Virus record (IMG/VR): IMGVR_UViG_3300042991_000303
Coordinates: 1-21,939 of that record
Direction: 5' to 3' (one strand)
Length of the DNA: 21,939 nt
From: a virus
Shown here: piece by piece, positions 7,884 to 21,939 of the stretch
How positions within the stretch are numbered: position 1 is the first letter of the stretch
Layout: every line of letters begins with the position of its first letter
Translations under genes and position numbers: made by a program
Notes under the pieces: model-generated
Databases searched by the model: none
Told to the model about the DNA's origin: nothing
The model's input: the letters and a program-made list of their open reading frames with translations, nothing else

Positions 7884-8936
7884 TTAAAAAAGAATGTTTA
7901 TCGGACCCGATCCTGACCGCTTAACCATGTCCGGCATCATCTTCCACCTCGTGAACATTGCTAATGCCGTCTTAAGGTCAAGCTGTATAATCTGCTGTAT
8001 GTTGCCTTCTGGATATGCACCCAGGATACCGCCCTCTGTGGCGTTTATCATCAACTGTGCATTACCCCCAGACCCTCCGGTTGCCATATAGGTGAACCAT
8101 TGGGCGAATCCAAAATAAGAAGGCCAAGTCCATACCCGATTACCGTAAATATCAGTAGCCGGTATTACCCCGGCGAACTTCTTATCATACTGTGACTCCC
8201 AGCCATGAAACTTCCTATCATATCCGAAAGCGAAGTCTGCTCCAATCATTATCGGGATTGAAGCTCCAAGGACGCCCATGGTATAATACCATGCACCTCC
8301 AAGGACACAGCCGCCAACACTCAGACAGGGCACTTTGTCATGATCCACCAGCTTTCTTAACTCCTGGCCGTATGAGTCTGTGGCCGGAGGGGTAAAAAAC
8401 CAGAGTATCTTGCCTTTCCACCTACGGATAAGTTCCGGGTAAGCACCTGTGTAAGCAAGCAACGTCCTGTCTTTGGTTCGTTCCCAATACCAGTCCGGTT
8501 CATGCTGTGTGCCCCCCTCGGTTACTTCCGATAAGGTGATTTGCCCTGCATCAAGTGTCATGTAGTAGTCATCAAGACCCATTACATCACGATCTTCAAA
8601 GAACCCGAAGTTATGCAGACAAGAGACAATCCTTATACCTTGTCGGCCACGGTTATGTTCATCCGTAGCCGTCAAGTCTTTCCAGTTCTTCTTCAAGGAT
8701 GGCCCTGAACCGGCTACTACTACAGGCTGATAAGCGCACTTACCAAGTTCCTGTAACGCCGAATGCTCACTGAATCCGTGAACACTATTCTCCTTTATCT
8801 GAGCCAACCACTGGTCATGCCAAGTGTTGATTGTAACCTTATCGTTACGGGTAGCTACATCAAAGCATGCTTCCGGACCCGCAGGCGGTCCAGGTATATA
8901 AGACTGTGCCTGCAAAACCATCTCAACCAAGGCCAT
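7884..8936 (-). CDS. DUF115/Maf-type glycosyltransferase-like protein
   Basis: This 350-residue protein carries the DUF115 (MptE-like/Maf) core motifs in order: VVVAGSGPSL at 72-81 (nucleotide-binding loop), the acidic YYMTLDA at 124-130, SVGGCVLGGAWYY at 206-218 leading into IPIMIGADFAF at 227-237, TDIYGNRVWT at 261-270, and the hallmark INATEGG at 297-303. Family members include the motility accessory factors, which transfer pseudaminic or legionaminic acid to Ser/Thr of flagellin, and archaeal MptE, a pterin diphosphokinase. The flanking Maf N- and C-terminal domains are mostly absent, so this is a minimal core. It lies in the virion operon just upstream of the Thr-rich fibres, while a NeuB-like gene is encoded at 19,878-20,522. 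I infer virion protein glycosylation. The donor and acceptor are unproven. Confidence 0.75.
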   Translation of the reverse strand: MALVEMVLQAQSYIPGPPAGPEACFDVATRNDKVTINTWHDQWLAQIKENSVHGFSEHSALQELGKCAYQPVVVAGSGPSLKKNWKDLTATDEHNRGRQGIRIVSCLHNFGFFEDRDVMGLDDYYMTLDAGQITLSEVTEGGTQHEPDWYWERTKDRTLLAYTGAYPELIRRWKGKILWFFTPPATDSYGQELRKLVDHDKVPCLSVGGCVLGGAWYYTMGVLGASIPIMIGADFAFGYDRKFHGWESQYDKKFAGVIPATDIYGNRVWTWPSYFGFAQWFTYMATGGSGGNAQLMINATEGGILGAYPEGNIQQIIQLDLKTALAMFTRWKMMPDMVKRSGSGPINILF

Positions 8937-8960
8937 TAGTTTCCCCTTTGGATTTAATCA

Positions 8961-8978
8961 GGCCCCGTGCCAGGGGCC
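8961..8978 (-). terminator. GC-rich hairpin after the small virion gene (attenuator-like)
   Basis: GGCCCC at 8961-8966 pairs with GGGGCC at 8973-8978 across a 6-base loop. It starts three bases past the stop of the 8982-9437 gene and precedes the AAAGGGG site of the DUF115 gene. There is no T-run on the minus strand, so it would be a weak or partial terminator, or an mRNA-stabilising 3' end that lowers expression of the downstream enzyme gene. Confidence 0.5.
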
Positions 8979-8981
8979 AAT

Positions 8982-9437
8982 TTAACCTACATTGATGAAG
9001 GCCGCAAATGTTCCGGCAGTTGCTGTCTCGCCTGTGGCATAGCCAACTATAATACCAGAAGCACCTGTTGAGGCGGCGAAAGCACCGTATGCACCTATGG
9101 TAAGTCCACAGCCTTTAACTGTAGCAGCCTCTCCAAGGGATGTTACCGGCACATGGCCCCTTACACAGACCCAACCATACTCGGTCGGACCAATCTGTGC
9201 ATTATATACAACGCCCGCACAACCTTCACCCGCAATAGATGATTGGGTCATGCTGTATCCGGACATTCCGGAATATGTAACACCAAGCTTCACAAGAGCT
9301 GTACTGGTGCTTGCATTGTACATATAGACGTATTTCTTCCCGCCCTGCCAACGCTCTGTACCAAGGTCGACAGAGGGTTTTGCGGTCACTGCGCTGACCG
9401 ATTCCTCAAAAACCCGCTGTAAACCGTAGTTACTCAT
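8982..9437 (-). CDS. Small Gly/Ala/Thr-rich virion-type protein
   Basis: A 151-residue protein. Two ATGs are possible (9443 and 9437). I chose 9437 because it forms an ATGA overlap with the stop of the endonuclease gene and has AAGGA six bases upstream, whereas the site abuts the earlier ATG. The sequence is rich in small residues and predicted beta structure, ending GIIVGYATGETATAGTFAAFINVG-like, as in phage head decoration or stabilisation proteins that follow the capsid gene. The family is not recognised with confidence. The HNH gene separates it from the capsid gene, which suggests that the two structural genes were once adjacent. Confidence 0.75.
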   Translation of the reverse strand: MSNYGLQRVFEESVSAVTAKPSVDLGTERWQGGKKYVYMYNASTSTALVKLGVTYSGMSGYSMTQSSIAGEGCAGVVYNAQIGPTEYGWVCVRGHVPVTSLGEAATVKGCGLTIGAYGAFAASTGASGIIVGYATGETATAGTFAAFINVG

Positions 9438-9967
9438 ACCCATTCCTTGCTTTCATGTTTCTTTAAATACTCAATACACTTTTCAAGAAAAGGAACGCTG
9501 TCTCTTGCCTGTCCAAGTATGACATTACACCGAGAACACAAGATGTCCCGAATCTTACCGGTTGCATGGTCATGATCGATCGACATGTGCCAACCTTTCT
9601 TGATTTCCTGCCCACCACAGATTGCACAGACACCACCCTGTTCTTGAAGTTTATGATCATACTCTGCCTCAGTCATCTTCCACTTTTTCCTTAGGTCATG
9701 TTTTCTATGTAAACGGTGCCTAATTAATTTACAGTGTTCTGACTGGGTATACTCAGCATTCCATTCTTTAAATCTGCTTGTCTCCCGGAAAGCAACATTT
9801 CTCTTATTTTCGCAGAGCTTACAATGTGAGTTTCGACCAGACTTGGTCTTCTTGTGCCTGTAAAACTCATTGAGATCCTTCCATTCCTTACACCGAGCGC
9901 ATTGTTGCCTTCCATCGACTATTGGCTTACTGTTACCTTTAAACGGCTTAAAAACCCCATTCTCCAT
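9434..9967 (-). CDS. HNH (recombination endonuclease VII-type) nuclease
   Basis: This 177-residue protein has two Cys4 zinc sites: C23/C26 with C49/C52 near the N-terminus, and C114/C117 with C144/C147 around the active site. The catalytic beta-beta-alpha-metal motif is IDHDHATGKIR at 130-140, then LCSRCNVILG, which is the pattern of endonuclease VII-like His-Me finger enzymes. Proteins of this kind either resolve branched DNA before packaging or act as free-standing homing endonucleases. Its insertion between the capsid gene and a small virion gene, plus an RNA hairpin covering its ribosome site, favour a selfish homing role, but a packaging-linked role remains possible. ATG at 9967 follows an AAAGGAGG site by six bases. 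Confidence 0.88.
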   Translation of the reverse strand: MENGVFKPFKGNSKPIVDGRQQCARCKEWKDLNEFYRHKKTKSGRNSHCKLCENKRNVAFRETSRFKEWNAEYTQSEHCKLIRHRLHRKHDLRKKWKMTEAEYDHKLQEQGGVCAICGGQEIKKGWHMSIDHDHATGKIRDILCSRCNVILGQARDSVPFLEKCIEYLKKHESKEWV

Positions 9968-9972
9968 ACTGA

Positions 9973-10016
9973 CCTCCTTTAGTTTACCAGAATATACATT
10001 CTGATTCTAAAGGAGG
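9973..10016 (-). promoter_or_regulatory. Hairpin sequestering the HNH gene's ribosome binding site
   Basis: On the minus strand CCTCCTTTAG (10016-10007) is perfectly complementary to CTAAAGGAGG (9982-9973). The second arm contains the whole Shine-Dalgarno of the HNH gene. Inside the 24-base loop a second perfect stem forms (CAGAAT/ATTCTG, loop of four). The structure begins about ten bases after the capsid stop. In the full-length late transcript the endonuclease site would be paired, so its translation should be low unless a transcript starts or is cut inside the hairpin. T4 homing endonuclease genes are known to be silenced on long transcripts in this way. Confidence 0.75.
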
Positions 10017-10026
10017 CCTATTTCCC

Positions 10027-10944
10027 CTATGTCAATGCAGTAAACATACCCTGCATTCTCGGATTCGAGCAAGTCATTGCTCCAGTCCAGAAAATGTGAG
10101 CCACTTTTACGTTTTGATTAGTAGGTTGGATAAATGGTGAGAACCTGAAGTCTTCGTCCTTGTGGACGAGCAGACTGATATATGCTTCGTTAAGCATATA
10201 CAGGTATCCGCTACTACAATGGCTGTCAATGATCACCGGGATACCATTTACGAGCAGGTTGTTGAAACCGGCTTTAAGGGTATCTTCGTCAGCAAAACGC
10301 TGCTGAGGCTGGAATGCACCATACAGGTCATCATAGACGTCCTGTGTAGTACAAGCCACTGTGGGTTTGTCATTGTCGATTGAGCAATCACCGTAGAGAG
10401 CCTGGAACGCTGTCGGGGTAATAGCAGTTGTGCTGCTATCAACCTTACCCTGCCACCAGCTATAAGTCTCTTTTGCAAGGGTACCATAAGTACCAGTTGC
10501 AGCGGCCATGAGCTTCAGACCCTGGATTGACTTTGCAGTTGTTCCGTCACCGAAAAGGTCTGTGCCAAGGACATTGGCAAGGGACTTCTCAGCAGACTGG
10601 ACTTTCGCTTTGATATGGCTGATGATAGCGTTTTTACCACTATTCTTCAGTTCATCAAGGCGAGTAATTGGAATGGATACCGCGTATTCTTTCCAATCCC
10701 AGCTTGCGTCTGTAATTTGTGCTGTGTCATCTGTGTTCAGGGTCTCAGAACCGCTATACCGCATTGCATTGCCGGTAACAGCGTACAACAGAGGCTGATT
10801 GATGGTTGTTCCACCGTCAACCTTCTCATACCACTTTTTCTTTTTCGCCCTCTGGAAGAGTGCATTACTAGAAAAAATATTATCCACAAGCTTCGGGATA
10901 AGATACTTTTGGGTCAGTGAGGAAATTTCACTTGTAAGTGCCAT
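10027..10944 (-). CDS. Major capsid protein (HK97-fold)
   Basis: This 305-residue protein resembles phage major capsid proteins. It has an N-terminal helix, a VDGGTTINQPLLYA strand region (about 43-56), SWDWKEYAVSIPITRLDELK leading into a long spine-like helix (about 80-125), a GTDLFGDGT loop, a central P-domain-like part, and a C-terminal strand region ending in RMQGMFTALT. Its position after a Gln-rich scaffold-like gene and downstream of portal and terminases supports the call. The start has AGGAG nine bases upstream. No protease gene or fused prohead protease domain is visible nearby, so assembly probably relies on the separate scaffold. This should be the most abundant virion protein. 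Confidence 0.85.
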   Translation of the reverse strand: MALTSEISSLTQKYLIPKLVDNIFSSNALFQRAKKKKWYEKVDGGTTINQPLLYAVTGNAMRYSGSETLNTDDTAQITDASWDWKEYAVSIPITRLDELKNSGKNAIISHIKAKVQSAEKSLANVLGTDLFGDGTTAKSIQGLKLMAAATGTYGTLAKETYSWWQGKVDSSTTAITPTAFQALYGDCSIDNDKPTVACTTQDVYDDLYGAFQPQQRFADEDTLKAGFNNLLVNGIPVIIDSHCSSGYLYMLNEAYISLLVHKDEDFRFSPFIQPTNQNVKVAHIFWTGAMTCSNPRMQGMFTALT

Positions 10945-10962
10945 AATCTTCTACTCCTGTGT

Positions 10963-11880
10963 TTATCCCCGCATCTCGGCCGCCATTTTACCCGCCAAGT
11001 CCGAATAGGAATCATTTGGCGTGTATGCTGGTCGAGCTTGGGGCGGTTGTTGGGTGCCCCCACCTTGAACAATTCCCTGCTTATTAGCCTGTACCCGCTG
11101 TTCTTGTTGCTGCTTGAGGACATCCGCTTTGACGTTTGTCTGCTGTGCGTCCCACATCATAGCCCGGTATGCATGATCCAGGTTTCTGATTTTGTTCTCC
11201 ACCGCAAACTCCAGGAGCTGTCTCTCTAAGGTTCCTGACCCGTTGTCCACATCCCAGTTTGGGTTGGGGTACTTGGTCTTGAGATCCTTAAGGGTTCTAT
11301 CCAAGGCTGCATCTTCATCAGATGCCGCTCTCTTGGAAAACTCCTGTTCAATTCTGTCTATCCTCTGTTGCAACTCAGGGGGTACCTGATAAGCCGGTTG
11401 TCCCTGTGGCTGTTGGCTCCCTTGTTGTTGACTACCATGATACTCGGCCGCCGCTGAAAGAATCTTCTGGGCTAAGGCCGGGTTTGCTTTGAGCATCTTG
11501 TCTAACTGGTCGTACTGTTGATACTGTCCAGCACGGGCCTGTAATCCTTGACGCTCTTTATTCAGCTTTTCCATCGCCTGACTATATCCAAAGCCTCTTT
11601 GAGCCAAGTTGATCAGTTCTTCTCTCGATTTCGGAACCACATCTTGATCCCGATACTTGAGCTTCCACTGAGACCCGTCCCATACCTGCTGTGGCTGTTG
11701 TCCTGCTGATCCCGGAGTCTGTTGTCCGGTTTGTCCCGCTGATTGTTCGGGAGTATGGGTCATCTGTTCTCCAGGGGACCGATCATCTGTCGGTTTATCC
11801 TGGAACTGTGACTCTAACTCGCTCGTTCCCTCAGTAGGGACATCTTGTGTTGTAACTGTTTCCTGTGTGCCAGTATCCAT
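10963..11880 (-). CDS. Scaffold-like head assembly protein
   Basis: A 305-residue, hydrophilic, Gln-rich protein directly upstream of the capsid gene. The first 65 residues are low-complexity. A short WDGSQWKLKYRDQDVVPKS segment (67-85) and helical regions with coiled-coil character follow (around 95-150 and 167-255). The tail ends in DLAGKMAAEM. Composition, predicted helicity and position between portal and capsid are typical of phage scaffolding proteins, which shape the procapsid and then leave. The sequence itself is too divergent for a firm family name. AAAGGA lies eight bases before the ATG. Confidence 0.78.
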   Translation of the reverse strand: MDTGTQETVTTQDVPTEGTSELESQFQDKPTDDRSPGEQMTHTPEQSAGQTGQQTPGSAGQQPQQVWDGSQWKLKYRDQDVVPKSREELINLAQRGFGYSQAMEKLNKERQGLQARAGQYQQYDQLDKMLKANPALAQKILSAAAEYHGSQQQGSQQPQGQPAYQVPPELQQRIDRIEQEFSKRAASDEDAALDRTLKDLKTKYPNPNWDVDNGSGTLERQLLEFAVENKIRNLDHAYRAMMWDAQQTNVKADVLKQQQEQRVQANKQGIVQGGGTQQPPQARPAYTPNDSYSDLAGKMAAEMRG

Positions 11881-11950
11881 TATCGAATCCTTTGGTTGGG
11901 ATGGTTATTTCAATCCATTGCCCCATATTAAGAGCTAAGATATTAACAAA

Positions 11951-12178
11951 TTATTTGCCAGCATCACCAACGAACTGGATTGTGCCAGATCCAGAGGGTG
12001 CATCGCCCATAGCATTGGCCGGCCTTACCGGTGCGTCTGCTGATGCACCACGGTTGGTTTCCGGACCTGCCATGATTGGCCCACCATTACCCAGACTGCC
12101 TGTAGGCAACGCCTTAGGCATGCTGCTTGAAACGTCATCTGCCCCATTACCTGCGAAACTGATTCCACGATCTGCCAT
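11951..12178 (-). CDS. 75-residue low-complexity protein, unknown
   Basis: A small Gly/Ala/Pro/Ser-rich protein (75 residues) with no predicted membrane segment or clear fold. An AAGGAG site seven bases before the ATG and its fit in the operon between the Pro/Gln-rich gene and the scaffold support a real gene. It could be an assembly cofactor or a minor head protein. No family was recognised. A 70-bp spacer with only an imperfect hairpin separates it from the scaffold gene. Confidence 0.65.
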   Translation of the reverse strand: MADRGISFAGNGADDVSSSMPKALPTGSLGNGGPIMAGPETNRGASADAPVRPANAMGDAPSGSGTIQFVGDAGK

Positions 12179-12197
12179 GATATACTCCTTGTTTGGT

Positions 12198-12620
12198 TTA
12201 CATTATTGGTACGGCACGACCTGTGCCTGTGTTTGCATTAACTCTTCCACCCATTGCCTGCCCCATTGGTTGTGGTGCTGCCTTAGGTGCTCCGGCCTGT
12301 GGCTGTCCAGGTGCAGGTGGTTGTCCCTGTGGCGCTGGTGCCGGTGCCGGAGGCTGTGCCGGTTGTGCTGGCCCTTGGCCTTGCATTGCCGCTATAAGCT
12401 GTTGCACTGCAGCCTGCATCTGTGGTGCCTGTGGGTTTCCCTGTTCTTCCTGGGCCTTCACAAACGTGATAATCGTTCGAAAAGCATCCACAACAGGACT
12501 GGCATCAGCCTGTGGATCTACAGGTTTTCCCTGTGGCTGTCCTTGCGGCTGGCCCTGTGGCGCCGGTGCGCCTTGCGGTGCAGGCGGTTGTCCCATAGGC
12601 TTCTGCATAGGTGCGTTCAT
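12198..12620 (-). CDS. Pro/Gln-rich protein coupled to portal gene
   Basis: A 140-residue protein with two disordered Pro/Gln/Ala arms (about 1-40 and 82-140) around one amphipathic helical segment (PVVDAFRTIITFVKAQEEQ at 42-60, then AAVQQLIAAMQ). Its ATGA start overlaps the stop of the portal gene, so it is translated with the portal. Small disordered proteins next to portals are common in phages and may act in head assembly or as an internal protein. No specific family was recognised. The strongly biased composition creates long spurious reading frames on the other strand. Confidence 0.72.
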   Translation of the reverse strand: MNAPMQKPMGQPPAPQGAPAPQGQPQGQPQGKPVDPQADASPVVDAFRTIITFVKAQEEQGNPQAPQMQAAVQQLIAAMQGQGPAQPAQPPAPAPAPQGQPPAPGQPQAGAPKAAPQPMGQAMGGRVNANTGTGRAVPIM

Positions 12621-14479
12621 ATTTGTCCTCCTACAGCACCTTCGGGTGCTTGAGTTGAAACAGATTTCATTTTTTCTGCAATTTTATCTGCATTGGGCCA
12701 TTCTAAGGCCTTGAGTAATTCTGTCGCATCAATAGCTTTACTGTCAAATAGCTTGAAAGCTATGTTGGCTCTGGATGTCTTTGCCCAAGGCATTGATGTC
12801 CCAGACAATACCTTCACATCCATCATGCCCTTGGTTACGGGTGTCTGGGTATAGTTAAGGTCAGGAACATATACCGGCCTGCCTGTATCCTTATTAACCT
12901 GCTGGGCATAGCGCTTCTGATTCATTACATACTTACCAGGTTCTGGTTCTTCCACGAAGAATTCAAAGAACTGTGGCCACTGGCCTTCCTTGCCCGTGAT
13001 CCTGGCTACTCTTGGCTCACGATAATACTGCAGCATTAAGGCCACGATCTGTGTACCTAACTGCTGTAGTGATACCTGTAAGTTACGCTCTTTGAGACGT
13101 ATACGGGTATTTGCTGCCTCCTGTAATGATTCTATGGCGGCGGCCGCATTCACACCTGGCGGCTTTCTGCCTTGAGAGACTTCCCCTATCCCAGACGACA
13201 TTTCACTCATCCGGAATATCAGGTTCAAGACTGCATCCATGGAAGGAGGCATGCTTGGGGCAAAGTCCCGTTTTATCTTGGCATTGGCATTGGTGCCCGG
13301 TCTACATAGTAAGACAGAAGAAATCTGGTTGGTTATCTGTTCCGGTGATATACCGGCGTCGTCCTCTACTATCCATACAGGATTGCTCATAAGATTAAGG
13401 TTGTCAAACACATGGGCCAAGGCCTTGTTTAACATCCTCTGTATCTGCATAAGGACCTTTGCCTCACCCTCACCCCAGAACTTACGGGGCAGAAGCGTAT
13501 CAACAATCCTTACGAAAGGCCATTTGCCATGGCTATAGGGATTGGGTACCTTCTGAAGAACAATCTTCTGGTTCGGAAGAACAGTCAAGATGCATCCTCT
13601 TGGATACTTCTTCTTCTTAATCTCTTTGCCGTCCTTATCATTGATGGTCTCAATAGCACTATCGCTCATCCAGATTTCCCAGACTTCAGCCGTCTTCCTC
13701 TGGTCATCACCAGTGTTTGTGCCGGCCATTCCGGGTGGAGCGTACTCATCAATGGGCGATACAAGCTTGACCTCTGTATCACTTGTTGAGACTTCTTTAG
13801 AGCCAGTGGCCGCCTTGGAGTCATCCTTGATTTCATCGGCATATTCCGGGAACTGTTCCTTGAGATCTGCAATAGGCTTATAAGTCCTGTGAAGTACCCA
13901 TGGGCATTGTTTGCCAAAGTCTACTGCCCCATAGGGAACATAAACATCAAACGGGTTGACAACCTCTACGTTGATGTCACCTACGCCGTCCTCTTTGGCA
14001 GGGTCCCAGGTTATCTTAAGGATGGCCGCATCAAGGATCATGGAATCCATTAAGGACTCCACCATGGTATGATCCATGCTGTTGTTATCCCACCAGGTAC
14101 CTACTAACTCACCAACCATACTGGCAAAATCGAAGTCCCCGGGTTCCCTCGGAAGTACCGAAAAGCCGGGGCGGTTATCTGTAAGGATAGGTAGCTGTGA
14201 CTGTATGGACTGCCTGATGATGTTCATCACAGGCTTGGACTTATAGAGGCTAGCAAACTTCTCGCTTTGCCACTGCTTGCCCTCGTAATAGTCCTGACGT
14301 TTACTCCAATCCTTATCAATGTCTGCTCTTGCAGCCTTACCTTGGGACATAAGCTCCATGGCAAGCTTAAGGTCCTTCTCTGTATCAGTATCCATCTTAG
14401 GTGCAGGACTGTCAGAGGACTGTACTGGGCCTTTGTTAATATCTGCCGGTGTATTGATACCTTGCTGGAAATCGCTCAT
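12617..14479 (-). CDS. Portal protein (P22-like)
   Basis: This 620-residue protein forms the portal ring through which DNA enters the head. Support comes from the N-terminal helix followed by DWSKRQDYYEGKQW, then NIIRQSIQSQLPILTDNRP (about 85-103), which is typical for P22-type portals; the VNPFDVYV strand near 175; a clip/stem region rich in charged residues with KWPFVRI and RMLNKALAHVFDN; and the helical QVSLQQLGTQIVALMLQYY segment. Length fits the family. It overlaps the upstream zinc-ribbon gene and the downstream Pro/Gln-rich gene by ATGA. Together with TerL it identifies the packaging block. Confidence 0.87.
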   Translation of the reverse strand: MSDFQQGINTPADINKGPVQSSDSPAPKMDTDTEKDLKLAMELMSQGKAARADIDKDWSKRQDYYEGKQWQSEKFASLYKSKPVMNIIRQSIQSQLPILTDNRPGFSVLPREPGDFDFASMVGELVGTWWDNNSMDHTMVESLMDSMILDAAILKITWDPAKEDGVGDINVEVVNPFDVYVPYGAVDFGKQCPWVLHRTYKPIADLKEQFPEYADEIKDDSKAATGSKEVSTSDTEVKLVSPIDEYAPPGMAGTNTGDDQRKTAEVWEIWMSDSAIETINDKDGKEIKKKKYPRGCILTVLPNQKIVLQKVPNPYSHGKWPFVRIVDTLLPRKFWGEGEAKVLMQIQRMLNKALAHVFDNLNLMSNPVWIVEDDAGISPEQITNQISSVLLCRPGTNANAKIKRDFAPSMPPSMDAVLNLIFRMSEMSSGIGEVSQGRKPPGVNAAAAIESLQEAANTRIRLKERNLQVSLQQLGTQIVALMLQYYREPRVARITGKEGQWPQFFEFFVEEPEPGKYVMNQKRYAQQVNKDTGRPVYVPDLNYTQTPVTKGMMDVKVLSGTSMPWAKTSRANIAFKLFDSKAIDATELLKALEWPNADKIAEKMKSVSTQAPEGAVGGQI

Positions 14480-14766
14480 GCTGATAGCCCCGCTAATTCT
14501 GGATAACGTCCACTATTAAGCTCGGCACGCAGGCCTGCATCATAATCCACTCCCTGCTTCTTTGCCGGCAACCGCTCATTACCGATTTCTACCGCCCCCT
14601 TGGGAGGCCTGTTCTTAATCATATCAAGTCTGCCTGGTGTTGGTGTCCATATCCTATCCATGATGCTACTGCAGTCTGGGCATATAGCCGGGAGACTGTA
14701 CTCAGATGCTGGCCTGACTACTTCTTCATATCGGGAACACTGTGGGCACTTGTACGGGTATATCAT
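14476..14766 (-). CDS. FmdB-type zinc ribbon protein
   Basis: A 96-residue protein from the ATG at 14766; a longer reading into the holin-like gene is unlikely because it would overlap that gene by some 60 bp. The first 45 residues are a two-Cys-pair zinc ribbon: YKCPQC (C7, C10) and AICPDC (C29, C32), followed by DRIWTPT, the usual layout of FmdB-like putative regulatory proteins found between terminase and portal genes in many phages. The C-terminal half is charged and ends overlapping the portal ATG (ATGA). Its role is unknown; a packaging accessory is possible. Confidence 0.75.
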   Translation of the reverse strand: MIYPYKCPQCSRYEEVVRPASEYSLPAICPDCSSIMDRIWTPTPGRLDMIKNRPPKGAVEIGNERLPAKKQGVDYDAGLRAELNSGRYPELAGLSA

Positions 14767-14773
14767 TTTTATA

Positions 14774-15185: not shown

Positions 15186-15212
15186 ATAGGTATGCAAGTT
15201 ATAAACTGATTA

Positions 15213-16499
15213 TTACCAGTCATCTCCGGACGGCCTAGAGCTGTACTCGCCCTTGATAAGCCTCTGGAGATGTGTTGGTGATGGCTTGAATACTGGTTGC
15301 CATGCCCTGAGCATATCGAAGCAACACATTGATACATAACGACTTGCGTCCATAAGGTGGTCTGCAAACTTAACTGGGGTTGTTATAGGATTCTTCCCAT
15401 CCTTGTCCGGTGGGTAGCTATATGTTTCATACTCTTCTTCTGTACAAGGGCATTTTCCACGGAATACCCGGTAAGTCTTTGCTCTGATTAACTGCTGATG
15501 AAGGGCAATTCCATTCTGTACAGAGTTATGTCCCTTGACAACTCCGGTGATGGATAAGCCATTTTTTCTGAAATATTCTATCATCCCAGGGTCAGCCGAA
15601 TCAGCATACCATGTTGTCACTCCGTACTCTTTTTGTAACCGTTTCGTTACCTCAAGTTGCTCATCTGGGGTATGTCCTGTACGCAAATATTCACCAATTT
15701 GGTAATCTGCTTTACCGTCCCGTGACAAGGCTCTGATGACTACTGCAAAAGGATCTGCGTACCCCCAGTCCAGTCCACCGACCACCAAATACTTGTTTGG
15801 GTCTATCTTGAATGGGTCACATATATTGGCATAATCAAAGTCCTGATAGACAAGGCCGGCCATCCTTTCAAATCTGCCCTCATACCTTAGGGCAAACATC
15901 CTTGGGTCTAACAGGCGTTGCTGTCTGTAATACTCATCACGGGGGAAGTATGGGTTATCAACTGACTTGAACTGTATGATGTCTACATCGTCCCGTTCCC
16001 CATCCTTCCATGGTTCATATAGGTCATGGTACAGATAGTTGGACGTGTTATATGGCGTGGTGGATATAAATATGTTACACTGCATTGGGGCAGCACGGCC
16101 CATCAAGTTAATGAATGCCTGTGTGGATATTAAGCCGCCCTCATCAACCCATATACCCCGACACTTGGTTATACCTTCACATGACCACTCGTTATCCATT
16201 GATCTGAAATAGACTTTGGGGCCATGGTTCAAGTAAAATGTCTTCTCGGATTTATGGAAGTATCCCAAGGCTCCACAGTACTTGAAGAATGCTGGTAGAG
16301 TGGATGAGTTGAAAATCGAATAAGTAGGAAAGGCTACTATGTACGAAGAATCTTTTTCGGCGTGGTACTGGGATAATGTCTTACGCATCCATAGACCACC
16401 CGCTGTGGTCTTCCCTGACTGGAGACCAGCGACCATGGCTATGATACGCTTAGAGCTGGTTAGAGCTTGCTCCTGATATTGATGTAGTCGAATCTCCAT
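15213..16499 (-). CDS. terL: Terminase large subunit
   Basis: This 428-residue protein is the DNA-packaging motor. The ATPase half has Walker A GLQSGKTT (25-32, K30) and Walker B GIWVDEGG (115-122, D119 with catalytic E120), followed by the coupling-type STTPY (146-150). The RNase H-like nuclease half shows the acidic residues LDWGYADP (D244, D249), YADSADP (D300, D303) and KFADHLMDASRY (D380, D384). The length is normal. It starts inside the end of terS (50-bp overlap), so the two subunits are co-translated. Assignment is secure. Packaging type (cos or headful) cannot be decided from this alone. Confidence 0.95.
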   Translation of the reverse strand: MEIRLHQYQEQALTSSKRIIAMVAGLQSGKTTAGGLWMRKTLSQYHAEKDSSYIVAFPTYSIFNSSTLPAFFKYCGALGYFHKSEKTFYLNHGPKVYFRSMDNEWSCEGITKCRGIWVDEGGLISTQAFINLMGRAAPMQCNIFISTTPYNTSNYLYHDLYEPWKDGERDDVDIIQFKSVDNPYFPRDEYYRQQRLLDPRMFALRYEGRFERMAGLVYQDFDYANICDPFKIDPNKYLVVGGLDWGYADPFAVVIRALSRDGKADYQIGEYLRTGHTPDEQLEVTKRLQKEYGVTTWYADSADPGMIEYFRKNGLSITGVVKGHNSVQNGIALHQQLIRAKTYRVFRGKCPCTEEEYETYSYPPDKDGKNPITTPVKFADHLMDASRYVSMCCFDMLRAWQPVFKPSPTHLQRLIKGEYSSRPSGDDW

Positions 16500-16884
16500 T
16501 GGTCCCCAGAGTCATAAGGTGTGTATTGTTCTGGCTCATTAATATTATGGGCTCTGGTGCTTCCAGGATGGTGCGTTCTGAAAACAGACACTTCCACTTA
16601 CCCAGAAGCTCAAGTGCTCGTAGCTTGTCCCTGTTGATGGCTGATGAGTCATTGGCTATGGCTGTTATCTGTTCAATTATCTTCTCGGCTGTTGGTGCCC
16701 GGAACCTGGACAGGAGCTCTTTCCGGTATTCATCAATCAAGAGGGTTATGTTTGGGCGCTTAAGTAGCTTACTGGCCGCTACCCGGGCAGACCGGTAGCC
16801 GGCTACCTCGGCTGCATGTGTACCATGCCCACCGTTATTGACGTACTCTTTGGCAAAGGCCATCTGCTTTTCATTGGCTGTCAT
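16450..16884 (-). CDS. terS: Terminase small subunit
   Basis: A 144-residue protein starting at ATG 16884; a GTG at 16893 is an alternative. The N-terminal part (NEKQMAFAKEYVNNGGHG, then AAEVAGYRSARVAASKLL) is the helix-turn-helix DNA-binding domain of Terminase_2-type small subunits, which recognise the packaging site and recruit TerL. A helical oligomerisation region follows (about 55-105), with a Ser/Thr-rich tail. It overlaps terL by 50 bp. The packaging site is often inside or beside terS. Confidence 0.88.
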   Translation of the reverse strand: MTANEKQMAFAKEYVNNGGHGTHAAEVAGYRSARVAASKLLKRPNITLLIDEYRKELLSRFRAPTAEKIIEQITAIANDSSAINRDKLRALELLGKWKCLFSERTILEAPEPIILMSQNNTHLMTLGTNGDSTTSISGASSNQL

Positions 16885-17006
16885 TTGTACCACTTAAGTG
16901 AGTTTAAGTAACTATCCTTAATCAATTAAATACTACCCCAAAAAAACGTGTAAGTGTTTGAGGGGGGGTCGTTTAATCGTTAAGTAAATGTGGTTCAAGT
17001 ATTACT
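16885..17006 (-). promoter_or_regulatory. Upstream region of the terminase operon
   Basis: A 122-bp AT-rich gap ahead of terS. It contains a perfect palindrome CACTTAAGTG (16891-16900) and three TTAAGT copies (16894, 16904, 16980). A C4/G4 inverted pair flanks an AAAC/GTTT stem (16937-16977 region), readable on the minus strand as an imperfect hairpin after the small membrane gene. It may hold a terminator for that gene and the late promoter or an operator, but no convincing -35/-10 pair was found. Confidence 0.35.
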
Positions 17007-17276
17007 TTAATCCATGCCATCTAAGTCGTTATTAAGTGTGGCTTGATTTGCCATGCTCTCTGCCACCCGTTCCTCATGGGCGCTATCCATGTAAGTCACA
17101 CGGCGCTCTCTGGGATTGGGCATAGCTTTTACTGTAACCGGCGTACTTTGGGCCAGTTGTGGTAAAGTTGACTTTTGACGTGCCTTAGAGTATAATGCTA
17201 TAATGCCTAACAGTTGGGCTGATCCGAAGACTACACCGAGGATGAATGCCGCTGTCAGGAGTGTTGCCAGTGCCAT
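17007..17276 (-). CDS. Small single-TM protein, unknown
   Basis: An 89-residue protein with one N-terminal membrane segment (about 4-30, ALATLLTAAFILGVVFG...) and a charged soluble tail ending in NNDLDGMD. A GGGAGG site five bases before the ATG supports it. It is the first gene of the leftward block and is divergent from the zinc-ribbon gene starting 34 bp away, so both must be driven from within this short gap or from overlapping sequence. A lysis, superinfection-exclusion or membrane-anchoring role cannot be distinguished. Confidence 0.65.
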   Translation of the reverse strand: MALATLLTAAFILGVVFGSAQLLGIIALYSKARQKSTLPQLAQSTPVTVKAMPNPRERRVTYMDSAHEERVAESMANQATLNNDLDGMD

Positions 17277-17310
17277 TGGTCCCTCCCTTTAACCATATCG
17301 GAGTTATTAA

Positions 17311-17775
17311 GTGATTATTAACTGCAAGTGTGGGAACATCTTGGTTATCACATCAGATTCGGTTAAGGACAGGCCTATCGTCACCTGCACTCATTGCAAG
17401 ACTGCTCTGGATGCCCGAATTCCTTCAGATGAGGCCCCAAGGATTGAGGATAATCAAAAAGAGGTACCTACGGAGGTTTGGGACGGTCAAGAGGATTACG
17501 AGGCTTGTACGGCAACCTGTCCAAAGGTGGATCATAAGGCGTGGGAACATTATGGTTATCACCCAATGTCCCACATCGGAGAATCATTACCCAGGTTGAT
17601 GTGTATGTGCCAGACACTGATTATGGGTGGGACAGCTACCCAACAGCGGTTCTGGTTTGTAGCTGCCCCTCACCGATATAAGACAACACCTCAGTACAGG
17701 TACCGGTCTAACTTCAGGGGTAAGTCTTATCAGCTTAATCCTGTGGCACATGGCGGTCATAAGGTTTCCCACTAA
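17311..17775 (+). CDS. Zinc-ribbon protein of unknown function
   Basis: A 154-residue protein starting at GTG 17311 with GGAG seven bases upstream. The N-terminus has paired cysteines, NCKCG (C5, C7) and TCTHC (C26, C29), with a beta-hairpin spacing typical of zinc ribbons. Further Cys/His residues (TATCPKVDHKAWEHYGYHP, then MCMCQ) suggest a second metal site, and the tail is basic (PHRYKTTPQYRYRSNFRGK). It could bind DNA or RNA. It stands alone between the leftward late operon and a non-coding stretch. No family name is justified. Confidence 0.65.
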   Translation: MIINCKCGNILVITSDSVKDRPIVTCTHCKTALDARIPSDEAPRIEDNQKEVPTEVWDGQEDYEACTATCPKVDHKAWEHYGYHPMSHIGESLPRLMCMCQTLIMGGTATQQRFWFVAAPHRYKTTPQYRYRSNFRGKSYQLNPVAHGGHKVSH

Positions 17776-17781
17776 TTCCGT

Positions 17782-17807
17782 GGATTCCTCCGGAAAATCC
17801 GGAATCC
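17782..17807 (+). terminator. Hairpin after the zinc-ribbon gene
   Basis: GGATTCC (17782-17788) pairs with GGAATCC (17801-17807), and inside it CCGGA/TCCGG can form a tighter stem. It begins seven bases after the stop codon. No clear T-run follows, so terminator strength is uncertain. Confidence 0.45.
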
Positions 17808-17868
17808 TTAATCGCTCAGGTATTAGGCGTTTCGGGCCAGCTAAAGGTATAGGCTGTGAGGATTCTGG

Positions 17869-17985
17869 ATGACTGTCCTATTACTCTTTGTTTTGGTTTT
17901 CCCCCTGGAGAGAAGGCAAAGAGCGATAGCGATACTTGCCTTCTACCCTTGGGATACCCTTTATCTCAGTCCTCTGATGGAGTAA
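17869..17985 (+). CDS. Possible 38-residue hydrophobic leader-like peptide
   Basis: A short frame from ATG 17869 to TAA 17985 with GAGG eight bases upstream. The first 13 residues are strongly hydrophobic (MTVLLLFVLVFPL), followed by ERRQR and a second hydrophobic patch. It overlaps a stable hairpin, so the apparent frame may be chance. It could be a tiny membrane peptide. Evidence is weak and there is no homology. Confidence 0.25.
   Translation: MTVLLLFVLVFPLERRQRAIAILAFYPWDTLYLSPLME
17911..17944 (+). other. 9-bp perfect inverted repeat with an alternative pairing
   Basis: AGAAGGCAA (17911-17919) is perfectly complementary to TTGCCTTCT (17936-17944) with a 16-base loop. The overlapping CAAAGAG (17917-17923) can instead pair with CTCTTTG (17884-17890). 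Two mutually exclusive stems are the layout of attenuators and switches, but short pairings like the second also arise by chance. Confidence 0.4.
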
Positions 17986-18222
17986 GTCCTCTGGAAGTTC
18001 TTCTGACTTAATAGTTACTCAGGTATTAGGTCTTTATCTTAATAGGTCTTAATTATAGTACTTTTACATACAATACAATGTAATTAAGTAGTGTTATTAT
18101 ATTTTGTCTTTTTCTTTCTTAAGACAAGGAGGCTAAAGTTAAAGTCACAGACGCGTGCGCGTGCGTGGGTACATATTATAATAGGAAAGTCAGAATTTCC
18201 GTGGACTTAACAGGACACGGAC

Positions 18223-18483
18223 TTAATTGGACTTGAAGGCTTGAGACTTAATAGCTTTGAATTTGGCTTGGGAGTCTATCCAGTAACCTGGCCAAAGGCT
18301 ATCAGGGACAACTTGATCGAGGTAATTAGTCATACACCAATCCCTGGCTATTTCTCCGAAGAGGGTTTGTCTGGCTGAACCTTTGGTTAAAGGTGCCATA
18401 CCCCTTTCCACAACATTTGCCTTATAGGCTTCTATGCCTTTCTGAAAGAACCACTCTTCACCCTCATAAGTCATATTCCTCAT
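18223..18483 (-). CDS. 86-residue protein, unknown
   Basis: An 86-residue, Trp-rich protein (EEWFFQKGIEAYK, DWCMTNYLDQ, SLWPGYWID) with mixed helix and no membrane span. It resembles small DUF-type phage proteins of early regions, but I do not recognise a family. It overlaps the upstream 212-residue gene by 20 bp. The ATG at 18483 has GGAAGG six bases upstream; an in-frame ATG at 18474 is an alternative. The two minus-strand genes likely form one operon driven from the AT-rich region near 19.15 kb. Confidence 0.7.
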   Translation of the reverse strand: MRNMTYEGEEWFFQKGIEAYKANVVERGMAPLTKGSARQTLFGEIARDWCMTNYLDQVVPDSLWPGYWIDSQAKFKAIKSQAFKSN

Positions 18484-19102
18484 TCCTTTCCTTCCAGGCT
18501 ATGAGCTTCTCTTCATCTATCTCTTCATGGGTATAGTAGTCTTTCACTTTAACGTCCCCTTGACCTCTTATCCAACAACCTTCCTTAGCCCCGTCCCTTA
18601 AAGTACGCTTTTTAGGGCCTACGGCTTTGTATGGGGCTATGATCTCAAGGTCAGGGCCTTCCCATACCCCTCGGATATAACTTACGTTTAAATGGGGGTC
18701 TAGCCACAAAAATGTAGGTCTGTGTTTAAGGCACTCTACGTAAGCAGTCTTGGCCTTGTGTGTTATAAATAATATAGGCCTCTTCACTTTTGAGTACTTG
18801 AGATAGAAGCCGTCCCTTATCCGTCTAAAATCCTCATACACCATGCTGTCCTTGGTGTATTTCACCCCAGATGCATAGGCAACTGCCTTGGCACCTATAT
18901 CATTAACAAGCACCTCATACATAATCCCACCTATGGCATCAGCAACCAGTAAGGACATCTTTAAAGGTTCGGGGCTCATACCCATACCTATAGACTCAGC
19001 AACCAGTTGGGTCAAACCACTTAGGGGTTCTGCACTTATACCCACTTCAAGGAGCACATAGTTCTTCGGTGCTGGTAATTCAGGTACTAACTGATAACGC
19101 AT
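18464..19102 (-). CDS. 212-residue protein of unknown function
   Basis: The start is ATG 19102, chosen for its AAAGGAGG site five bases upstream; an upstream GTG at 19135 lacks one. The sequence carries a loose internal repeat near the N-terminus (VGISAEPLSGLTQLVAESIG at 20-39, then GMSPEPLKMSLLVADAIGG). The middle is alpha/beta (KRPILFITHKAKTAYVECLK), and the end is charged and helical (EEIDEEKLIAWKERNEEYDL). It is the first gene of a two-gene minus operon, divergent from the ribbon-helix-helix gene, a place typical of early control or host-takeover genes. No family was recognised. Confidence 0.72.
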   Translation of the reverse strand: MRYQLVPELPAPKNYVLLEVGISAEPLSGLTQLVAESIGMGMSPEPLKMSLLVADAIGGIMYEVLVNDIGAKAVAYASGVKYTKDSMVYEDFRRIRDGFYLKYSKVKRPILFITHKAKTAYVECLKHRPTFLWLDPHLNVSYIRGVWEGPDLEIIAPYKAVGPKKRTLRDGAKEGCWIRGQGDVKVKDYYTHEEIDEEKLIAWKERNEEYDL

Positions 19103-19182
19103 TTGACCTCCTTTCACCAATAGTCTTGTTTTCACACATACTTTAAATATACATTAAAAGTAATAAAAAATTAAAATAATTC

Positions 19183-19211
19183 TTGTATTAGCTAAATTTA
19201 TTGTGTATATT
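19183..19211 (+). promoter_or_regulatory. Sigma70-like promoter for the rightward genes
   Basis: TTGTAT (19183-19188) and TATATT (19206-19211) are separated by exactly 17 bases, in a very AT-rich stretch between divergent genes and 22 bases before the start codon at 19234. The -10 matches consensus in five of six positions and the -35 is weaker. The adjacent ribbon-helix-helix protein could act here as an autorepressor. Confidence 0.55.
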
Positions 19212-19233
19212 TAATTTAAAGGAGAAAACAATT

Positions 19234-19407
19234 ATGGAACAGACTGCACCAGTTAGACTACAAGCAGACATATCCCTATCATGTAAGGCCCGGTTAAATT
19301 TCTACGCAACCTTAAACCAGGTTCCAGCGGGTCAGATAGTGGAACAAGCCTTAAATGAATTTTTCACAAAGGAAGAAGAACTTGCAAAACCCAAGGAGGC
19401 TGTATGA
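19234..19407 (+). CDS. Ribbon-helix-helix-like DNA-binding protein
   Basis: A 57-residue protein from ATG 19234 with AAAGGAG nine bases upstream. The pattern is a short beta-strand (VRLQADISL, 7-15) followed by two helices (SCKARLNFYATLNQ and PAGQIVEQALNEFF), the layout of Arc/CopG-type repressors that bind DNA as dimers through the strand. Its place at a divergent promoter fits a small transcription regulator. The charged tail overlaps the next gene by ATGA. The family call rests on length and pattern, not on a firm match. Confidence 0.6.
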   Translation: MEQTAPVRLQADISLSCKARLNFYATLNQVPAGQIVEQALNEFFTKEEELAKPKEAV

Positions 19408-19856
19408 CACCGGAGCAAGCTTTAAGGAGCCCCGACTTTCTTTTGGATATTGATAGTCTAAAAGAGGTTATTCAGGAACTGATGAAAAGGAACAAACGCA
19501 TAATAAAGTTTTCCAGGGAAAATTTATTAATTATGGCCAGCTTACGCAGAGAGCTCAACAAAAAAAATTATTTTGATGAAAATAAAAAAACAGAATACAT
19601 GGATAAAACAGAAGATGTATTCAATGAAATCCATGAGGCCCTCGATCAAATTCACAATCTTGTAGTAGGTGGTGGAGGAATATTGGAGATTTCCAGTAAA
19701 GAACTGGATAACCCAGAAAACAGTGTTAGAGGAAACTGTATAAAGCTAGAGATGGCTTTAGAAGCCCTTTACAACTGTATGTATATCCACGAGTACAATG
19801 AGGAGAGAACAGAATGTGCCAAGTCATCTACCGAGAAACAGTCAACCGCGGCTTAA
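19404..19856 (+). CDS. 150-residue helical protein, unknown
   Basis: An AT-rich gene whose start overlaps the previous stop (ATGA), so it is co-translated with the ribbon-helix-helix protein. The product is mostly helical (SLKEVIQELMKRNKRIIKF, then EDVFNEIHEALDQIHNL), with a VVGGGGILEI turn at about 87-96 and a second helix pair with Cys (ALEALYNCMYI). No catalytic motif is visible. A partner or modulator of the regulator is possible. GC content is low (11 of 60 bases in 19561-19620), unlike the following genes. Confidence 0.68.
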   Translation: MTPEQALRSPDFLLDIDSLKEVIQELMKRNKRIIKFSRENLLIMASLRRELNKKNYFDENKKTEYMDKTEDVFNEIHEALDQIHNLVVGGGGILEISSKELDNPENSVRGNCIKLEMALEALYNCMYIHEYNEERTECAKSSTEKQSTAA

Positions 19857-19877
19857 CCGCAGAACTGGAGCCTTGTC

Positions 19878-20522
19878 GTGAAACCAATATTGATAGCGGA
19901 CATCGGATCCCTGTGGGGCGACAGCCTCGACACAGCCTTGGAAGCCGCACGGGCGGTAGCCTTGGCCGGCTTTCGGCCAAAGTTCCAGTTCTGTCAGCCT
20001 ACCAACGGGAACCGGCCCTTACCTGCTGAGTACCTGCCCGAGATTGTTAAGGCCTGCCCGAATGCCTCGGCATCCGTGTGGGACATCAACGGCTTAGAGG
20101 CAGTCATCAAGGCTGATGCAGCCTGGGTCAAGTTGGCCTGGTCTGCTCCCAGAAGCCTATTGTCTGTATGCAAGGACCGCCTGCCTGTTGTTCTGACAAT
20201 GCATGATGATGAGTTCTACTCACGGCAGCAGGGCTTGTGGCGCTTACTTACCGCTGAGGATGGCGGTGTGCCAATCTATCCGGATCGTGGCCACTACCCG
20301 AAACAGGTGCATGTAGATTCTTATGGTGACCCGCTCTACCCAGATGCGGCAGACGGCTTTTCCTGTCACGGAACCGTAGAGGATTGCCTTGACGCTGTTA
20401 AGGCCGGAGCACAAATCCTGGAGGTACATACCAACCCACTTGCCTTACCTGAGGATTGGGCACCGGACGCCCGGTTTGCCTTAAGCCTATCAGACTTGGA
20501 ACGTCTGGGTAAGGCCGTATGA
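19878..20522 (+). CDS. Short NeuB-like (sialic acid synthase family) protein
   Basis: A 214-residue protein starting at GTG 19878 with GGAG seven bases upstream. NeuB enzymes condense phosphoenolpyruvate with a hexosamine-type sugar to form nonulosonic acids. Features in the expected order: IADIGSLWGDS (6-16; family IAExG, here Asp for Glu at 8), KFQ at 35-37 with the conserved Lys and Gln, WVKLAWS at 83-89 (Lys85 at the Schiff-like/PEP-binding Lys position), GFSCHG at 160-165 (family SDHT; metal His164) and LEVH at 181-184 (Glu182, metal His184). It lacks the C-terminal antifreeze-like SAF domain and is about 120 residues shorter than usual. The changed E-to-D and D-to-C positions leave activity open. 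GC content is clearly higher than in the gene before it. Next gene overlaps by ATGA. Confidence 0.65.
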   Translation: MKPILIADIGSLWGDSLDTALEAARAVALAGFRPKFQFCQPTNGNRPLPAEYLPEIVKACPNASASVWDINGLEAVIKADAAWVKLAWSAPRSLLSVCKDRLPVVLTMHDDEFYSRQQGLWRLLTAEDGGVPIYPDRGHYPKQVHVDSYGDPLYPDAADGFSCHGTVEDCLDAVKAGAQILEVHTNPLALPEDWAPDARFALSLSDLERLGKAV

Positions 20523-21124
20523 AACTACTTATCATTGGCTCAATGGGTGCCATAGGCAAGAGGTACATGGCAGTGGCCAGACACCTCTGTATTGATTATG
20601 TGGGCTGGGACCTACGGATGGGTACACCAATGCCTGTGCTTGGGATCACCCACTGCCTTATCTGTACCCCGACTGATACCCACTACAAGATTGTTAATAC
20701 ATTATCCAATATGACTGACTGGCTACTCTTAGTAGAGAAGCCCTTGGTCATGGTACCAATGGACGGCTTTGTCCTATCCTTCTTAAGAGGCTACACCGTC
20801 TGTAATTGGTCACTGGTACACGATGGGATATACAAACCAGGTACCTGTGAGATTACTTATAAGTCCCATCACACAGGCCCGGATGGCCTGCCTTGGGATA
20901 CCTGCCAACTTCTGTATTTGAGCCGGCCGGAGCATCCACCTGCAATTGGGGAGTCTCCCCTCTGGTCGGCTACTATTAATGGCCAAGAGGTTACATATCG
21001 TCAAATTGAAGAATCTTATATCAGAATGATTGACCTTTTTGTCAACCGAAACGGAGAGGGCTTATGGACGCTAAACGACGGTTATCAAATGACTCTAAAA
21101 TGTCTTGGAATGCAAGGGCCATAG
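20519..21124 (+). CDS. Short Gfo/Idh/MocA-type oxidoreductase
   Basis: A 201-residue protein beginning with a Rossmann NAD(P)-binding motif GSMGAIGKRY (G7, G10, G13). Then come LICTPTDTHYKIV (47-59) and LVEKPL (71-76) with the EKP catalytic/binding Lys74, all hallmarks of Gfo/Idh/MocA sugar dehydrogenases. The C-terminal substrate domain is reduced to about 100 residues (usual proteins have 320-380). Such enzymes oxidise or reduce sugar hydroxyls or ketones, often as the step before an aminotransferase. It overlaps the NeuB-like gene by ATGA and the aminotransferase gene by 61 bp, so all three form one translational unit. The substrate is unknown. Confidence 0.75.
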   Translation: MKLLIIGSMGAIGKRYMAVARHLCIDYVGWDLRMGTPMPVLGITHCLICTPTDTHYKIVNTLSNMTDWLLLVEKPLVMVPMDGFVLSFLRGYTVCNWSLVHDGIYKPGTCEITYKSHHTGPDGLPWDTCQLLYLSRPEHPPAIGESPLWSATINGQEVTYRQIEESYIRMIDLFVNRNGEGLWTLNDGYQMTLKCLGMQGP

Positions 21125-21939
21125 ACGTACTGGCACAGGGTTGCACGACATTTTCCAAAAGGATTACGTCTTACGGATGGGACTCCCCAACCCACGTATT
21201 AAGTTCTAACGGTGTCCAACTTACTTGCGATGACGGCAAAGATTACTACGACATGGGCGGTATGGGTAGCCAGCTTATATCCTGCACCAACAACTTCAGT
21301 TTGCCAAGTTACCTCGAAGTCGAAGTAGCCGAGAAAATCCGTGACCGTGTCCCCGTAATGCAGAAGATGAAGATACTTAAGACAGGCAGTGCGGCCTTGG
21401 AGTGTGCCATACGCTTTGCCCGTGATTACTGCAAGCGTTCAGGTATCATCTGGTCAGGGTATCATGGTGTTAATAATGCCTGGATCTCCTGTGAGAAGCC
21501 CGGTGCCGGTACGGTCTACGAACACTCCATAAAGTTTACAGATGACCACAAGCTGCTGGCCTACCTTAAAGGTAAGCATTATAAGTCATCCATTGGTATT
21601 GTCTGCATGGAGCCTGTACTCCTTGATGACTCCACGGAACGTGAGGAACTTGTCAAGGAGATTATCAAGGTCGCACACAGTAAGGATATGATTGTTATAC
21701 TTGACGAAGTGGTAACAGGTTGGCGTGTCCCTAAGTTTACTTATACCAATAACTGGGGCTTGGATGCAGACATAGTCTGTCTGGGCAAGGCCACTGCTGA
21801 TGGCCATCCCATCGGGATATGTGGAGGCCGTAAAGACATCATGTCCGGTGACAGCTTTATAAGTAATACGGCAAACGGCGAAGAGTCCACCCTTAAGGTC
21901 ATGTCAGATGTTCTTAATCTTGTGACCGAAGAAAAGCTG
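21064..21939 (+). CDS. Class III aminotransferase (GSA-aminomutase-like), C-terminus beyond window
   Basis: An open frame from ATG 21064 to the right edge (292 codons, no stop), with GGAGAG five bases upstream; an ATG at 21100 is an alternative. This is a fold-type I PLP enzyme: KTGSAALECAIRFAR at 106-120 (phosphate-binding GSA turn), GYHG at 132-135, MEP at 182-184, DEVVTGWR at 214-221 (Asp214 for the pyridine nitrogen) and CLGKATADGHPIG with Lys242 as the Schiff-base lysine, exactly 28 residues after the Asp as in glutamate-1-semialdehyde aminomutase. About 100-130 residues should follow outside the window. Beside NeuB-like and oxidoreductase genes, amination of a keto-sugar is more likely than haem synthesis. 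Confidence 0.85.
   Translation, partial: MDAKRRLSNDSKMSWNARAIDVLAQGCTTFSKRITSYGWDSPTHVLSSNGVQLTCDDGKDYYDMGGMGSQLISCTNNFSLPSYLEVEVAEKIRDRVPVMQKMKILKTGSAALECAIRFARDYCKRSGIIWSGYHGVNNAWISCEKPGAGTVYEHSIKFTDDHKLLAYLKGKHYKSSIGIVCMEPVLLDDSTEREELVKEIIKVAHSKDMIVILDEVVTGWRVPKFTYTNNWGLDADIVCLGKATADGHPIGICGGRKDIMSGDSFISNTANGEESTLKVMSDVLNLVTEEKL

Follow-up and report, generated by a model that had tools for sequence, protein, structure and literature searches.

We found that a phage sequence encodes a Maf-like protein among its virion genes and, on the opposite strand, three proteins whose families point to the synthesis of a sialic-acid-like sugar (a nonulosonic acid, NulO). The sequence analyzed, hereafter the window, is the whole of IMG/VR virus record IMGVR_UViG_3300042991_000303, 21,939 bases. 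The record has no end repeats and is therefore probably a fragment of a phage genome. It belongs to a large clade of uncultivated tailed phages, the large records of which are 32-40 kb. An earlier note, made from the sequence itself, had proposed that these four genes form a system for NulO synthesis and protein glycosylation. All four are where that note had placed them, and the motifs it had pointed to in the Maf-like protein, GSGPSL and INATEGG, are residues 76-81 and 297-303 of its 350 amino acids. In the list, CMP is cytidine monophosphate.

7884..8936, minus strand: Maf-like (PF01973/DUF115) protein, 350 amino acids; proposed CMP-nonulosonate:protein transferase (PF01973 match and AlphaFold fold)
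19878..20522, plus strand: short NeuB-family nonulosonic acid synthase without a SAF domain, 214 amino acids (leave-one-out profile)
20519..21124, plus strand: short Gfo/Idh-like NAD(P)-binding protein, 201 amino acids (weak PF01408 match; leave-one-out profile)
21064..21939, plus strand: class III (glutamate-1-semialdehyde aminomutase-like) aminotransferase, with its C-terminus past the end of the record (PF00202 match)

The product of 7884-8936 is, as judged by profile and predicted structure, a PF01973 enzyme with the Maf core fold. The match of the window protein to PF01973 (formerly MAF_flag10/DUF115) has an E value of 3e-7 and, at 30.8 bits, is slightly short of the gathering score of 34.6; all eight members of the DUF115 alignment that were tested match this family (best, 5.5e-23). 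An AlphaFold model made with 96 homologues had a predicted local distance difference test score (pLDDT) of 96.1 and a predicted template modeling score of 0.94. In a Foldseek search of the PDB, the only match below 0.001 was the Maf glycosyltransferase 5mu5 from Magnetospirillum (E = 8.7e-9). This Maf was also the best match by VIA-align, which covered the best 1000 chains from Foldseek (Z 21.5, root-mean-square deviation 3.3, 249 residues aligned), and it was at the top when the DUF115 profile was compared to PDB sequences (8e-5). Lesser matches by VIA-align were the archaeal MptE-type HPPK 8sd5 (Z 14.5), SteA (~10), GT29 sialyltransferases (Z ~9) and the Campylobacter sialyltransferase CstII (GT42; Z 8.5). 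The residues G76, G78, P79, S80 and L81 of GSGPSL, together with H108, N109, D129, G208, G209, D234 and H244, are invariant or nearly so in the alignment. The earlier placement of this protein in the DUF115/Maf family is thus borne out.

Mafs O-glycosylate Ser and Thr residues of flagellin with NulOs, and their central domain (pfam01973) is reported to be similar to the sialyltransferase Cst-II (PMC11339370). The Magnetospirillum Maf and the Clostridium botulinum Maf, CbMaf, share this central domain and fold with the phage protein. In contrast to 5mu5, which has three domains and a chain sequence of 666 residues, the phage protein of ~350 amino acids is essentially the core domain, encoded in a virion operon, and its alignment spans only residues 237-517 of the 5mu5 chain. 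CstII and the GT29 enzymes are related to it in fold (Z ~8-9), but act on glycans, and a profile search detected no sequence similarity between them and the phage protein. We propose, based on the predicted fold, that the phage protein is a CMP-nonulosonate:protein transferase. A weak match (0.02) of the DUF115 alignment to the spike protein G of phiX174 in a profile search was judged to be due to chance.

The three genes at the right end of the window were recognized mainly with the help of related phages. Searched alone, the NeuB-like protein had no match in Pfam, PHROG or NCBIfam, the Gfo/Idh protein had a weak match to GFO_IDH_MocA (PF01408; E = 0.009; one relative reaches 4.8e-12), and the aminotransferase matched Aminotran_3 (PF00202; E = 1.3e-14, 54.1 bits, above the cut-off of 30.5). 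Scans of viral contigs with the NeuB-like protein or the aminotransferase alone, and of genome contigs with the NeuB-like protein alone, gave no matches; the sequences are too divergent. When the window sequence was left out of profiles made from related phages, these still recovered all three genes: NeuB at 1.4e-17 (profile from 38 phage NeuBs), Gfo/Idh at 8.2e-39 and the aminotransferase at 1.7e-68. A NeuB relative 30% identical to that of the window (record G008) passes the cut-off of PF03102 (3e-22), other members of the clade score up to 2.6e-55, and the phage NeuB profile matches the solved pseudaminic acid synthase 8h2c at 7e-71. By these profile comparisons the 19878 protein is a member of the NeuB-type synthase family, as had been suggested. 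Its residues Q37, K85, Y134, S162, H164 and E182 lie in columns that are invariant in 40 sequences, the window included. Judging equivalence from shared motifs, these correspond to Gln55, Lys129, Tyr186, Ser213, His215 and Glu234 in the active site of meningococcal NeuB (PMC6795526), and meningococcal Glu25 is Asp in the window. The short form without a SAF domain (211-235 amino acids, ending after the barrel) is found in the window and eight other phages, and these proteins (for example, L023:2189-2869) are a separate group among phage NeuBs; full-length phage NeuBs, such as that in G004, have the SAF domain. A single-sequence AlphaFold model of the window protein (pLDDT 39) was not used.

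Comparison of sequences, folds and genomes showed that these families are present across the clade, in a conserved gene order, and that they co-vary. Scans of viral contigs gave 124 matches with the DUF115 alignment and at least 531 with the capsid alignment, and the best 80 of each were kept. We searched 50 long records whole, of which the DUF115 scan had supplied 28 and the capsid scan a further 22; many of the shorter relatives' records are fragments. DUF115 was present in 50/50 long records, NeuB in 37/50, Aminotran_3 in 33/50, CTP_transf_3 in 31/50 and Polysacc_synt_2 (PseB-like) in 31/50. Of the long records, 23 reached 32 kb, and in 20 of these NeuB, a CMP-sugar synthetase, the class III aminotransferase and a PseB-like dehydratase occurred together. 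The two modules are linked across the clade, as the earlier note would have it. One record of this size (G053) has no PseB because its contig starts inside the operon.

The relatives also indicate what is likely to lie beyond the window. In ~20 records the genes are in the order PseB, Gfo/Idh, cytidylyltransferase, aminotransferase, GNAT, often overlapping. NeuB in most records is close to the terminase gene, at a distance of 7-9 kb on the upstream side of DUF115, and the operon is ~12-16 kb downstream; large negative offsets between the modules are probably the result of where contigs were cut. In the records with capsid proteins 74% and 70% identical to that of the window (G035 and G036), NeuB, Gfo/Idh, cytidylyltransferase and aminotransferase genes are contiguous, and in G036 they are followed by GNAT and PseB. 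The layout of the window is similar to this one, minus the cytidylyltransferase gene between Gfo/Idh and aminotransferase. Profile searches found no CMP-sugar synthetase, PseB or GNAT gene within the window, where the record stops at 21939, and we predict that these genes sit to the right of that position. The earlier note had pointed to a CMP-sugar synthetase as a gene to look for there, and relatives carry it between the oxidoreductase and the aminotransferase. Overall, the relatives have PseB-, PseF- and PseI-like genes of the pseudaminic acid pathway as well as GNATs; the window has the synthase only.

The Maf-like gene is in the block of tailed-phage virion genes, all on the minus strand of the window:

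15213-16499, minus strand: terminase
12617-14479, minus strand: portal, P22/SU10-like
10963-11880, minus strand: scaffold-like protein
10027..10944, minus strand: major capsid protein (phrog_9953 major head protein, E = 9e-56; Ser+Thr 17.7%); candidate acceptor
8982..9443, minus strand: small conserved virion-region protein of the P0008 family, 153 amino acids, between the capsid and Maf-like genes (Ser+Thr 19%); candidate acceptor
5883..7610, minus strand: second protein with collagen-like GXY stretches (38 GXY triplets, Thr at Y in 18); candidate acceptor
1503..5882, minus strand: collagen-like GXY repeat protein downstream of the Maf-like gene, with Thr-rich third positions (258 GXY triplets, Thr at Y in 114); candidate acceptor

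This location is conserved. The Maf-like gene lies ~0.5 kb behind the capsid gene in relatives. Among 68 loci that were found by capsid alone and had at least 2 kb of downstream sequence, the distance from the capsid gene down to DUF115 was at most 1.5 kb in 67 and 1.85 kb in the remaining one, and the P0008 family adjoined the capsid gene in 65. Because the Maf-like gene is always beside the capsid gene, the phages may sugar-coat their own particles. Ser+Thr is 17-19% in the capsid and P0008 families, compared to 10-12% in portal, terminase and enzymes of the same phages, which weakly suggests that these proteins are acceptors. In one record (G003, L016:6147-9010) there are antisense open reading frames of 377 and 554 amino acids opposite the capsid and Maf-like genes; these are probably artefacts of codon bias.

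It is also conceivable that the sugar ends up on a product of the host. In that case the NulO could be put on host flagellin, pilin or a surface glycan, by the Maf-like protein or by a transferase of the host, thereby changing receptors and blocking superinfection. Bacterial Mafs act on flagellin (PMC11339370), some of the cellular loci nearest to the phage aminotransferase are NulO islands of the flagellin type that have Maf, and phage-encoded O-acetyltransferases acting on host capsular NulOs are known (PMC6586298). In practically all members of the clade, however, the transferase gene has the same fixed position, with capsid genes on one side and tail genes on the other. The donor module, too, is found in nearly the whole clade, and yet the hosts presumably differ. 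We consider a host acceptor unlikely.

We found that the transferase co-varies with the sugar genes more than its virion neighbours explain. We used distance correlations among 30-38 phages and partial Mantel tests with 499 permutations. The raw correlations of DUF115 with the cytidylyltransferase, aminotransferase, Gfo/Idh and NeuB were 0.73-0.80. With capsid, terminase, portal and P0008 controlled for, they were 0.47, 0.52, 0.34 and 0.33, respectively (p = 0.002 each), and the partial correlation with PseB was 0.23 (28 phages, p = 0.024). The partial correlation of the capsid protein was ~0 with cytidylyltransferase, aminotransferase and NeuB, and 0.13 with Gfo/Idh (p = 0.12). That of terminase with NeuB, its neighbour, was 0.35. 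These results bear on the notion that host lipopolysaccharide or capsule is what the sugar module changes, with the DUF115 protein doing something separate, perhaps in the particle structure or as a pterin kinase of the MptE type. The runner-up in fold is indeed an MptE-type HPPK, PF01973 is named after MptE, and two large records keep DUF115 without NeuB. But Maf is clearly the best match in fold, and DUF115 co-varies with cytidylyltransferase and aminotransferase genes ~12-16 kb away, whereas the adjoining capsid gene, after control, does not. A separate role for the DUF115 protein seems quite improbable.

The phage sugar genes are consistent with one acquisition followed by inheritance. In trees with a sample of cellular relatives, one branch divides the phage aminotransferases from the cellular sequences (support 100/99), and the same holds for the phage NeuBs (99/96). 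The cellular loci nearest to the phage aminotransferase have PseB, NeuB-family and cytidylyltransferase genes and are from Endozoicomonas, Colwellia, Aeromonas, Paenibacillus and others. Bacterial contamination was considered but rejected: the module is embedded in the phage genomes of many records and the cellular genes group apart. We also regard it as very improbable that the trio in the window is a functionless fragment, either decaying or derived from a host. The trio is at the end of the record, its NeuB is very divergent, and it has no CMP synthetase gene between Gfo/Idh and aminotransferase. Against this, the reading frames are open, the catalytic positions are kept, the same genes are within other phage genomes of the clade, and the phage genes form single groups relative to cellular ones.

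Based on these results we infer the following reactions, in this order. A PseB-like dehydratase would open a uridine diphosphate (UDP)-linked N-acetylhexosamine, and the class III aminotransferase and short Gfo/Idh protein would remodel the opened sugar. A GNAT would then acylate it, the NeuB-type synthase would add a three-carbon unit to give a NulO, and a PseF/KdsB-like cytidylyltransferase would convert this to the CMP-sugar. Finally, the Maf-like protein of the capsid operon would transfer the sugar to Ser or Thr of a virion protein. The best candidate acceptors would be the capsid protein, its small neighbour or, in the window, the Thr-rich collagen-like fibre. We give a probability of roughly 58% to the interpretation that the phages make a CMP-activated NulO and use it to O-glycosylate a virion protein by means of a one-domain Maf-type transferase. 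More tentatively, and at a little short of even odds, the lineage as a whole makes a CMP-activated sialic-acid-like sugar without PseC or PseG and glycosylates its own virion with the Maf-type enzyme of the capsid operon, a core trait acquired once and kept.

Several points weigh against this interpretation. The acceptor is suggested by gene position and Ser/Thr content, and the phage protein lacks the additional domains that flank the core of flagellin Mafs at the N and C termini, for which reason we call it Maf-like rather than a flagellar Maf. The window NeuB is on a very long branch and is missing the SAF domain, the source of Arg314 in meningococcal NeuB. Shared ancestry can inflate the significance obtained from partial Mantel tests, and the co-variation is thus support, not proof. 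The large records G026 (L227/L228) and G042 (L229/L230), both 34-36 kb, have the Maf-like gene and no NeuB; the sugar genes of G026 amount to a weak aminotransferase match and G042 has none. These two phages may draw on host donor sugars. Lastly, PseC (PF01041) and PseG (TIGR03590) were each found in 0/50 long records, and the canonical pseudaminate pathway is thus incomplete.

The absence of PseC and PseG bears on the identity of the sugar. One possibility is that the class III aminotransferase stands in for PseC, with UDP being removed by another enzyme or by the host; the other is that the phages make a different ulosonic acid. Since the class III enzyme is not the standard PseC, and PseC and PseG are missing, we cannot call the product pseudaminic or legionaminic acid. 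The earlier proposal of a system for NulO synthesis and protein glycosylation is partly supported, as to families, fold and linkage; that a sugar is made, and which protein receives it, are predictions. The proposed oxidoreductase and aminotransferase pair for making amino-sugar precursors is there by family, but the aminotransferase is not the standard one. It is possible that the product is another cytidylyl-activated ulosonic or amino sugar, Kdo-like or with a new skeleton, that is used in the same way. Apart from the missing enzymes and the non-standard aminotransferase and short Gfo/Idh protein, the cytidylyltransferase scores best with KdsB-like models, and CbMaf accepts KDO (PMC11339370). 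On the other hand, the PseB-like dehydratase, GNAT and PseI/NeuB jointly suggest a diamino nonulosonate, and the phage NeuB profile matches a pseudaminate synthase, as described above. We think another sugar somewhat unlikely, and favour a NulO.

The phage system is a version of bacterial Maf/NulO flagellin glycosylation that is real, conserved and, in our literature search, undescribed. That search, the coverage of which did not extend to preprints and most subscription journals, found no description of phage nonulosonate synthesis or of a phage Maf. The Group I flagellin glycosylation islands of Aeromonas (PMC7874193), like the phages, have pseB, pseF, a class III aminotransferase, pseI and Maf; pseH is in some subgroups and PseG is absent from some strains. 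A similar pse island of A. rivipollensis (L244), one of the loci nearest to the phage aminotransferase, encodes PseB, PseC, a KidO-like (aldo/keto reductase-type) protein, CTP_transf, a class III aminotransferase and PseG-like, PseH, PseI and PseD/Maf-like proteins. The Aeromonas islands are chromosomal and have PseC. The phage version has neither PseC nor PseG; a short Gfo/Idh protein takes the position of the aldo/keto reductase, and the Maf-like gene follows the capsid gene. In mycobacteriophages, virions are glycosylated on capsid and tail tube subunits, according to the passages of PMC10568470 and PMC12619734 that cite Freeman et al. 2023; those passages name no NulO or Maf-type enzyme.

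A type of glycosylation known from bacterial flagella appears here in nearly all members of a large phage clade that seems to be undescribed. If the virion is the target, these phages would have a self-made sialic-acid-like coat, which could affect adsorption, host defence and recognition of the phage. The compact one-domain Maf-like enzymes and the NeuB without SAF are material for enzymology, and synthesis of the sugar without PseC and PseG poses a chemical question.

The system is rare among phages in GenBank. NeuB was found in 2 or 3 of 50,697 GenBank phage records, including one with a bacterial label, and DUF115 in none. A tblastn search of these phages with the trio and DUF115 gave only distant class III aminotransferases, several of them in host-like or unannotated records, and PHROG has no family for NeuB, the cytidylyltransferase or DUF115. 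Seven GenBank phages with related capsid genes had no DUF115 and no sugar genes in the stretches fetched, which were partial for most. A collagen-repeat protein is also found in a GenBank record (MW202489) that has a related capsid gene.

Two other genes lie in the virion region of the window. An Endonuclease VII-type gene (9434-9967; PF02945, 2.5e-22) interrupts the stretch between the capsid gene and the small gene next to it. It had no counterpart in the relatives compared, and looks like a homing endonuclease. At the left end (3-440) is a virion-block protein with a C-terminal part that looks like a zinc finger, and this protein is weakly common to two of the relatives (G004 and G007).

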